From a virus, in IMG/VR virus record IMGVR_UViG_3300027841_000032, positions 1 through 30,627 of that record: a DNA stretch of 30,627 nucleotides; one strand, 5' to 3'. Positions 23,285 through 25,131 of this stretch are shown here, in pieces. A program made the position numbers and the translations under genes. Numbering within the stretch: position 1 is the first letter of the stretch; each line of letters opens with the position of its first letter. The notes beneath the pieces are model-generated. The model was not told where the DNA came from. It worked only from the letters and a program-made list of their open reading frames with translations, and did no database searches.

Positions 23285-24421
23285 TCAGGCTGCCGCGCGG
23301 GCCTCGACCAGGTCGACCAGCGCGCGTTCGTAGGCCGCAACGTTCTGCGGAGCGAGCGCGTTCACTTCGTGGCAGAGGAACCGAGAGGCCCGCCGCTCGT
23401 AGTCCTCGTGCTCGGCGTCGTGGTGCTGTGCCACGTGCTGGAGCACTGCCGCCGCGTCGTGCGCGTCGAACCCGTCGTAGCGATAACCCACGCCATCGGG
23501 GAGCAGGTCCGAGTTGTGCACGAGCGGATACCCGCCGTGCAGTGCGTCGTAGTAGGCGTAGTTCAAGCCGTTTTCCCACTGGTGCGCGAGCATCACATCG
23601 CAGTACCGAGCCATGAAGAACGGAGTGTTGAATCGCCCCTCGAACGAGGCAACGTGTGCCCGCACGATGTCGAGGTGGCTCGCCATCGACTGGAACGTGA
23701 GGTGCTCCTTGAGGTGCAGCGAGTTCGTGATGTAGACGTCGCCCACCAGTTCCGGGTGCCTGCGGTAGAGAAGCTCGCAGGCGAGGAGCGGGACGATTGC
23801 CGTCTTGACGAGGTTGATGTTCGGCTCGAACGTGCCGATCCGCTTTGCAGTGCGCCCAGGCTGGTAGCCGAAGGCGAGCCCCTCGGGGAACTCCGACACG
23901 GCCTTGTTCGCGAACGTCGGCATCCACACGTGCGGGAGCACGCGCACCGGGCAGCGGAAGACAGCCTCCCAGTAGGATGCGCACGTGTTGACGTGCTGAG
24001 GATTCGTCCAGACCTCGTCGAACCGGGCGCCGTTGACGATCGCCCCCGGCTTCTTGTCGTGAATGGCCCGCTCGGTCTCGATCGCGTAGGCGTTTCCGAA
24101 CCGAAACGCGACAGCCTTGCCGCCCCGCGCATGCACGCGCTCGACGTTCTCCGCGCTGACCTGGGCAGCGGCTTCGATGAGCACGTCCACCTGGTCAATC
24201 GCTTCTGCGATAGGAACGAACTCGATGTCGAGCCCGTCGAGCATCAGCGCCTTGTCTGGGACCTTTGACTCGCCGCCGTTGAGCGCGAGCACGCACCCCA
24301 CCATGCCGGACTCGCGGAGCATGCGCAGCAGGAACACGCAGTTCTGCGCGGCGCCGTTGTTCCAGATGGACTCCTTCTCCCGGAGGAAGAAGGTCAGTCC
24401 GACGGTGGGGCGGTCTTGCAT
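23285..24421 (-). CDS. DUF2827-like glycosyltransferase
   Basis: 378 residues; ATG 24421 shares one base with the stop of the repeat-protein gene (TGATG), and the open frame upstream is a shadow of the portal and repeat genes. The start TVGLTFFLREKESIWNNGAA, followed by QNCVFLLRMLRESG, is the pattern of DUF2827 proteins, which are regarded as GT-B-type glycosyltransferases. The C-terminal half has the donor-site look: E283-N-G followed by NYAYYDALHGGYPLVHNS (residues 287-304). FDEVWTNPQHV and VLPHVWMP lie in the middle. It has no signal peptide or membrane segment, so it acts in the cytoplasm. Its place between portal and MuF suggests that it modifies a virion protein; the coupled Ser/Thr repeat protein is the obvious candidate (inference). 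Confidence 0.75.
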   Translation of the reverse strand: MQDRPTVGLTFFLREKESIWNNGAAQNCVFLLRMLRESGMVGCVLALNGGESKVPDKALMLDGLDIEFVPIAEAIDQVDVLIEAAAQVSAENVERVHARGGKAVAFRFGNAYAIETERAIHDKKPGAIVNGARFDEVWTNPQHVNTCASYWEAVFRCPVRVLPHVWMPTFANKAVSEFPEGLAFGYQPGRTAKRIGTFEPNINLVKTAIVPLLACELLYRRHPELVGDVYITNSLHLKEHLTFQSMASHLDIVRAHVASFEGRFNTPFFMARYCDVMLAHQWENGLNYAYYDALHGGYPLVHNSDLLPDGVGYRYDGFDAHDAAAVLQHVAQHHDAEHEDYERRASRFLCHEVNALAPQNVAAYERALVDLVEARAAA

Positions 24422-25131
24422 CAGTGGCCCGCCACGATGTGCGAGGAGAGCTTCGACTCCTCGGAACTCAGGCGCGTGGTGAGCGACACCACCGAACTCG
24501 TGAGCGTCGAGAGGTTCGCGCTGTCGACGACCGCAAGGGACGCGTCCGCACTGGTCCGGGTCGAGAGGTTCGTGCTCGTGACGACCACGAGCGATGCGGT
24601 GGCGCTGGCAGCGGTCGAGAGTACGGCGCTGTCCACGACCACGAGGGAAGCGTCGGCGCTCGCACGAGTGCTCTCCTCGGTGCTGACCCTGGTGGTCAGC
24701 GACACGTCGGAGCTGGTGAGGGCCGACAGGTTGGTGCTGTCGATGACAGCGAGGGATGCGTCGGTGCTCGCCGTGTCGCTCTCCGAGGTCGACACGCGGG
24801 TGGTGAGCGACGTGTCCGCCGCCGTCGAGGTCGACAGGTTCGTGCTCGCAAGCGTGGTGAGCGACGCATCCGCGAGCGTTCGAGTCGACTCCTCGGTGCT
24901 CACCCGCGTGGTCAGGGAGTTGTACACGGCCGCGCTCGAAAGCTCGCCCACGCTCTCGTCCGCGGACAGGCGAGTATTGAGCGACGCTACGGTGGTCGAG
25001 ATGGTGGTCGTGCCAGTGCCGAGCTTGGCCTGGATGGCAGAGACGGCGGTGGTGACCTTGTCCCGCTCCTCTTCCGTGGCGGCCTGCTGGGCAAAGGTGT
25101 CGAGTGTCGTCGGGTACGTGGTTGCGCTCAT
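24421..25131 (-). CDS. Ser/Thr-rich 18-residue-repeat protein, putative head fibre
   Basis: 236 residues; ATG 25131 overlaps the portal stop as ATGA. Ser plus Thr make up 95 of 236 residues (40%). After a helical N-terminus (LDTFAQQAATEEERDKVTTAV) residues 71-214 are eight exact-length 18-residue units of the type xSLTTRVSTEESTRASAD alternating with xSLxVVxSTNLSTxTSAD, and a ninth partial unit ends at 230. Alternation of the two unit types gives a 36-residue super-period. The pattern fits a trimeric fibre shaft or coiled coil. The next gene is a glycosyltransferase coupled by TGATG. Its place in the head module suggests a head fibre or decoration; the tail fibre at 2904-4175 has the same repeat. 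Confidence 0.75.
   Translation of the reverse strand: MSATTYPTTLDTFAQQAATEEERDKVTTAVSAIQAKLGTGTTTISTTVASLNTRLSADESVGELSSAAVYNSLTTRVSTEESTRTLADASLTTLASTNLSTSTAADTSLTTRVSTSESDTASTDASLAVIDSTNLSALTSSDVSLTTRVSTEESTRASADASLVVVDSAVLSTAASATASLVVVTSTNLSTRTSADASLAVVDSANLSTLTSSVVSLTTRLSSEESKLSSHIVAGH
24490..24921 (-). repeat. Eight 54-base units coding 18-residue Ser/Thr repeats
   Basis: Codes residues 71-214 of the repeat protein. The period is exact in all eight units; the two alternating types differ mainly at unit positions 4-6 (TTR versus VVx) and 9-11. Confidence 0.8.

Follow-up and report, generated by a model that had tools for sequence, protein, structure and literature searches.

A DUF2827 protein encoded with a Ser/Thr-rich stalk in a Mu-like phage: a putative O-glycosylation pair with counterparts at bacterial adhesin loci

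Why should a Mu-like phage encode a Ser/Thr-rich repeat protein and a predicted glycosyltransferase, one directly after the other, among its head genes? The window analyzed here is the whole of a 30,627-base IMG/VR virus record (IMGVR_UViG_3300027841_000032, positions 1-30,627) from an uncultured phage of this kind. Its minus strand carries a Mu-type head and contractile tail gene set in the order terminase, portal, P0002 (the repeat protein), P0001 (the predicted enzyme), MuF/protease fusion, major head protein, tail sheath, tape measure and baseplate. The features in and around the head cluster are:

26,512-28,242, minus strand: terminase large subunit ORF as listed, with the true start inside it (PHROG 979, Pfam Terminase_6C)
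25,128-26,510, minus strand: Mu-type portal protein, likely ATG at 26,510 (Pfam PF06074, Portal_Mu, 178.5 bits; PHROG 113 portal)
24,421-25,131, minus strand: P0002, 236-residue Ser/Thr-rich stalk protein (repeat analysis, AF2 model)
24,427-25,014, minus strand: 18-residue repeat region of P0002 (repeat and register analysis)
23,285-24,421, minus strand: P0001, predicted DUF2827 GT-B glycosyltransferase, 378 residues (Pfam, AF2, Foldseek)
21,470-23,281, minus strand: fusion of MuF and head maturation protease, 603 residues (PHROGs 4728, 6577, 11321, 617 and 80; Pfam S78)
19,926-20,990, minus strand: major head protein, same gene cluster (PHROG 1005)

Both genes of the pair (23,285-25,131) are real and were correctly delimited in an initial annotation, which also had them share one base; the P0002/P0001 junction is indeed a TGATG overlap with one base in common. 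The portal and P0002 genes overlap by 4 nucleotides (ATGA), and the stop codon of P0001 is followed, after 3 nucleotides, by the ATG of the MuF gene. In view of the overlapping stop and start codons with the portal and the 3-nucleotide gap to the next gene, P0001 and P0002 are most likely products of the late head operon. The pair had been placed between portal and MuF genes. A Portal_Mu protein does lie on one side, but the 'MuF' gene on the other is really a MuF and protease fusion, since weak MuF-type matches in the 603-residue protein are followed by a head maturation protease region. Such a fusion into one polypeptide, which probably includes a scaffold as well, is unusual in a Mu-like phage. 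Six long minus-strand ORFs at the end of the record that presumably encodes the tail fibres (46-7,411) have no Pfam or PHROG matches.

P0002 contains 48 serines and 47 threonines in 236 residues (40.3%), with 44% Ser+Thr in residues 41-226, and consists largely of about ten 18-residue repeats, such as SLTTRVSTEESTRASADA and SLAVVDSANLSTLTSSVV, that keep one register. These had been described as exact repeats; the composition and the period of 18 stand, but the repeats are imperfect, with a self-identity of 0.44 at lag 18 and 0.48 at lag 36 (maximum over 2,000 shuffles, 0.26). The corresponding DNA has a 54-nucleotide period with 74% matches (TRF). In the AF2 model, a small helical N-terminal part (residues 1-40) is followed by one continuous helix (residues 41-235; pLDDT 93-97 over residues 70-230) of about 195 residues, roughly 29 nm if straight. 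The repeat register (S1-L2 ... S7 ... S11 ... S15) sets a serine face opposite a hydrophobic face: with a rotation of 100 degrees per residue, the hydrophobic side chains face about 120 degrees and the serines about 300 degrees, and the serines would therefore line the outside of the stalk. Serines at positions 1, 7, 11 and 15, opposite the hydrophobic face, are found alike in the window, in the viral contig L016 and in Burkholderia adhesins, although outer-face serines are partly expected of any amphipathic helix, which lowers the weight of this pattern. P0002 is presumably a trimer, and residues 1-40 are its probable virion anchor. Searches of Pfam, PHROG and NCBIfam gave no match for P0002 and hence no membership in a phage head fibre or fibritin family. 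Pfam detects neither a YadA anchor nor a Hep_Hag head domain in it, which sets it apart from complete trimeric autotransporter adhesins; it resembles their stalk only.

The 378-residue P0001 had been taken for a DUF2827 protein of GT-B type, and both parts of that assignment are borne out, the second at the level of fold. DUF2827 (PF10933) is its only Pfam match, spanning positions 1-362 of 362 with 413.5 bits against a curated cut-off of 25. The AF2 model is confident (pLDDT 96.2, pTM 0.93) and has the two Rossmann-like domains of a GT-B fold. Foldseek matches it to solved GT-B enzymes in the PDB, among them BshA (3mbo, E 7.6e-11), with TM scores of 0.60-0.63 to BshA and GT4 enzymes; the matches listed also include GtfA and SdgB (4pqg, 7vfk), glycosyltransferases of Ser-repeat adhesins. 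A sequence-profile search of the PDB with 54 DUF2827 members found no glycosyltransferase relatives, so the GT-B assignment is one by fold and does not extend to a sequence-level relationship with CAZy GT4. Across these 54 diverse phage and bacterial members, P0001 included, E199, N201, K206, R263, H280, N287, [DE]292 and H302 are near-invariant. This conservation argues for an active enzyme, and the eight positions are candidate active-site residues of a predicted glycosyltransferase. No invariant or near-invariant cysteine occurs among the 54 members, which rules out the four-cysteine iron finger of the bacterial autotransporter heptosyltransferases (BAHTs). The closest viral structural match of the P0001 model is an uncharacterized protein of a giant algal virus, Pyramimonas orientalis virus (A0A7L9AXF5, TM 0.81).

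The pairing of the two genes recurs in other phages. With P0002 as the sole query, IMG/VR yielded six loci (L003-L008). L003 (record 3300004155_000022) is identical to window positions 19,153-30,627; it was rejected as an independent second phage and is not counted. In all five non-self matches (L004, L005, L006, L007 and L008), which represent three lineages, a DUF2827 gene lies 0-22 nucleotides downstream: L004 and L005 have a one-base overlap, L008 a spacing of 6 nucleotides and L006 and L007 one of about 21. In its N-terminal part, P0002 does not resemble its counterparts in L004, L008 and L014, whereas the start of the repeats (SVGELSS..Y.SLTTR.ST.E) is conserved; thus, the anchor changes while the repeats and the enzyme stay.

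A DUF2827 profile search of IMG/VR found 24 viral contigs, in which Ser-bearing coiled-coil repeat proteins occur near DUF2827 in about six phage settings. The repeat protein lies 0 to about 1,000 nucleotides from DUF2827 in L014/L015, L016, L017, L018, the T4-like L020, L022-L025, L027, L028 and L030. In the Mu-portal phages L014/L015 the two genes again overlap by one base, and in L017 a repeat protein with 40% Ser+Thr is encoded between the portal and major head genes; the T4-like repeat proteins have only 20-23% Ser+Thr. Podovirus-like contigs (L026, L031, L032 and L034) encode a 515-residue protein with about 40% Ser+Thr some 1.7-2.1 kb downstream of DUF2827, in the order portal, scaffold, DUF2827, major head and, further on, the 515-residue protein. 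The contigs of L021, L029 and L035 are too short to judge. The initial annotation had named enzyme homologues that mostly lack a repeat protein as one outcome that would tell against it. In phages the pairing held; a repeat protein is absent near DUF2827 in L019 and in L033/L036 (three contigs, two lineages, of the 24). The L027 and L017 repeat proteins, used as queries, matched only loci with DUF2827 wherever the contig continues far enough, which is weaker evidence because these queries were themselves picked beside DUF2827. In 50,697 isolated phage records, tblastn gave no DUF2827 match with three queries (P0001 and DUF2827 of other phage groups), and none to P0002 or the repeat proteins of other phage groups. 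A 316-kb viral contig (L018, positions 3,735-9,095) encodes two tandem DUF2827 proteins near a 691-residue protein in which 18-residue repeats of this type recur (SLTTRLSMEESVRSSADV).

Adjacency alone might also arise if P0001 glycosylates another virion protein, such as the major head protein or a tail fibre, and came to lie beside P0002 by an accident of cassette insertion. Mycobacteriophage isolates with glycosylated capsid proteins, as cited in PMC11256854, offer a precedent for such a target, and in the podovirus-like contigs DUF2827 adjoins the major head gene rather than a Ser/Thr protein. However, the pair recurs across unrelated portals and head genes. L004, L008 and L014 have Portal_Mu, accompanied in L014 by a head-tail adaptor and a sheath. 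L017 combines a portal of PHROG 145 with a major head protein of another kind, and a further major head protein is found in L026. Neither of the two portal types is seen in L016, which has a tail sheath. Moreover, bacterial DUF2827 has no capsid as a target, yet is found beside Ser/Thr-rich stalks (see below). We therefore regard a different virion target as unlikely.

Plasmid matches to P0001 (37-44% identity) lead to Burkholderia loci in which DUF2827 genes follow YadA-like adhesins; the B. glumae adhesin has 44% Ser+Thr and SLSTSTSTGLSTTNSTVA repeats. In Burkholderia, Variovorax, Haemophilus, Snodgrassella, Acinetobacter and others, the gene of a Ser/Thr-rich trimeric autotransporter is followed directly by DUF2827. 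Of 307 DUF2827 relatives found in a genome scan, 80 were kept and examined for a Ser/Thr-rich or Hep_Hag-like ORF on the same strand within 2.5 kb, with DUF2827 as the reference. Such an ORF ends upstream of DUF2827 in 53 of 74 loci; on the downstream side, one begins in 4 of 77. Inspection of the 21 upstream misses added eight adhesin-like ORFs (L051, L073, L082, L086, L091, L092, L094 and L096), bringing the count to 61 of 74. The 13 loci still without an upstream adhesin are six from Collimonas, whose clusters have DUF2827 but no Ser/Thr-rich neighbour, together with L041, L045, L048, L061, L068 and the short-flank L080 and L103. Proximity to a YadA anchor was rejected as the sole measure; it is too strict, since the apparent exceptions L120 and L121 adjoin Ser/Thr-rich adhesin-like ORFs. 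A further apparent exception, L119, has only a 140-residue remnant with an adhesin-like N-terminus.

What the bacterial DUF2827 partners have in common is a high Ser/Thr content. An 18-residue period was rejected as a universal mark, as the repeats of the Pasteurellaceae partners have periods of 7 or 14 residues. Stalks were compared by their peak Ser+Thr content per 150 residues, with linked stalks of at least 400 residues on one side and, as control, 40 YadA-anchor adhesins from the same family not found beside DUF2827 on the other. The linked stalks have a median peak of 0.62, and 47 of 54 reach 0.45, as against 4 of the 40 unlinked adhesins (Fisher P 2.6e-14, a value made too optimistic by kinship, since many of the bacterial loci are close kin and not independent). 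All four exceptional unlinked adhesins come from genomes with a DUF2827 gene of their own; in one case (L141) a DUF2827 cluster is about 4 kb away. Where the genome lacks DUF2827, adhesins never reach the threshold (0 of 20, none above 0.37). Among 60 Burkholderiaceae genomes, YadA anchors are present in 10 of 10 with full-length DUF2827 and in 24 of 50 others (P 0.003, likewise too optimistic because of kinship). In a class-wide draw, DUF2827 was found in 1 of 232 genomes, namely the centre genome itself.

Stable pairing with stalks could also arise if DUF2827 mainly helped long Ser/Thr-rich coiled coils to fold or stay stable and transferred hardly any sugar or none, in the way that GtfB assists GtfA without being catalytic itself. 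The several DUF2827 paralogues per bacterial cluster fit such a role, but the near-invariance of the candidate active-site residues in diverse members, the phage one included, speaks against it, and we find it improbable. A third possibility, that P0001 adds glucose to the bases of phage DNA in the manner of T4 beta-glucosyltransferase, draws on the existence of phage GT-B enzymes with this activity. It can hardly be credited, given that DUF2827 is mainly bacterial and adhesin-linked and that P0001 is encoded among virion rather than replication genes.

In the DUF2827 tree, the phage enzymes fall into several groups: the window with L004, L008, L014, L016 and L017; the T4-like phages with L018; the podovirus-like contigs; L033; and L019. 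At least four changes between phage and bacterium are needed, and well-supported branches force two of these; the deep branches are weak. The L019 enzyme nests within a bacterial group, next to an enzyme from Oxalobacteraceae, and this phage-like locus (L019, positions 5,236-9,119) has no repeat protein; its DUF2827 gene lies beside two other glycosyltransferase-like genes. Two bacterial loci, L117 and L118, have similar gene groups, also without an adhesin, which suggests a second DUF2827 context.

The origin and neighbours of the L019 enzyme also bear on whether P0001 is a lysogenic-conversion or host-modifying enzyme of bacterial origin that acts on lipopolysaccharide or another surface polymer of the host. 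The fold match of P0001 is to GT4-like GT-B enzymes, which usually make polysaccharides. On the other hand, the P0001 gene belongs to the late head operon and is tied into it by overlapping stop and start codons, and no membrane partner or polymer genes are seen beside it in the window; a role in host modification thus seems improbable as well.

The best reading by analogy is that P0001 and P0002 work like the BAHT/AIDA-I, GtfA/SRR and SdgB/SDR pairs, with P0001 outside those families by the tests made. In kind, though not in family, they form a private adhesin-glycosyltransferase pair, in which a predicted glycosyltransferase is conserved next to one class of Ser/Thr-rich repeat protein. The BAHTs Aah and TibC, with AIDA-I and TibA (PMC4358343), are likewise cytoplasmic GT-B-like enzymes whose genes lie beside those of repeat-rich surface proteins, in which serine is modified many times. 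However, BAHTs are dodecamers with a four-cysteine iron finger that act on beta-helical classical autotransporters, whereas DUF2827 is another Pfam family, lacks invariant cysteines and is partnered with coiled-coil stalks. GtfA/GtfB and SdgA/SdgB share the GT-B fold and are likewise dedicated to Ser-rich repeat proteins, but they belong to a different family. They are Gram-positive systems, and the repeats of their adhesins are unstructured, not coiled coil. HMW1C-like N-glycosyltransferases glycosylate trimeric autotransporters in the cytoplasm before export (PMC8151025); these enzymes are Asn-linked at NX(S/T), belong to an unrelated family and are not among the P0001 matches. Mycobacteriophages such as Che8, as cited in PMC11256854, also encode glycosyltransferases that modify virion proteins, but these phages are actinobacterial and the targets are capsid proteins. 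The whiskers of T4 (fibritin) and the head fibres of phi29 are likewise mounted on head or neck, but P0002 has no family match. T4 fibritin is a trimeric coiled coil, and we know of no glycosyltransferase partner for it or for the phi29 head fibres.

Taken with the pairing, these comparisons make it likely, in our judgement, that DUF2827 is a cytoplasmic glycosyltransferase for Ser/Thr-rich coiled-coil stalks and that P0001 O-glycosylates P0002, here as a head or neck fibre. The two proteins would be made together in the cytoplasm by translational coupling from the late head operon, P0001 would put a sugar on Ser/Thr of the outward face of the P0002 coiled coil, and the sugar-coated rod would be mounted on head or neck by its N-terminus. 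The benefit might be solubility, stability and protease resistance of a Ser/Thr-rich coil, adhesion to (glycan-coated) surfaces, or masking. Of the initial proposal that the enzyme O-glycosylates the repeat protein as a head fibre, the GT-B enzyme partnered with a Ser/Thr repeat protein, in phages and bacteria alike, has held up; for the place of P0002 on the head, it is the gene order that points there.

A review of type 5 secretion from 2021 lists NGTs and BAHTs as the only glycosyltransferase classes for proteins exported this way (PMC8151025). For one Burkholderia adhesin, a 2020 paper offered the guess that its Ser/Thr-rich repeats might carry O-glycans (PMC7142374), and the paper on the Burkholderia BCAM0219-0224 adhesin cluster names no glycosyltransferase in it. 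Our search of the open-access literature found no description of a DUF2827-stalk system; DUF2827 turned up there in a single paper, on an unrelated subject. On balance we favour, with less assurance than the proposal for P0001 itself, the view that DUF2827 is a third, undescribed class of cytoplasmic protein O-glycosyltransferase for Ser/Thr-rich coiled-coil stalks, serving both bacterial trimeric autotransporters and virion fibres in several unrelated groups of phages, and passed between them with its type of substrate. If so, a domain of unknown function whose genes adjoin those of adhesins in Burkholderia, Haemophilus, Snodgrassella and other bacteria would gain a function; the Ser+Thr content of some trimeric autotransporter stalks, which climbs to about 70% within 150 residues, would be explained; and phages would be shown to coat fibres of the head or neck with sugar by means of this enzyme family as well. 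An uncharacterized family is thereby given a proposed role that two genes are enough to test.

Two minor observations concern the bacterial loci. Burkholderia adhesins L125, L130 and L134, with 25-residue stalk repeats and about 65% Ser+Thr, are not beside DUF2827 but occur only in genomes that have it elsewhere, and DUF2827 may act on them in trans. In addition, two to four DUF2827 paralogues are often found near an adhesin together with tetratricopeptide-repeat and H-NS-like genes (L009, L010, L013, L092 and L094), hinting at stepwise building of a glycan.
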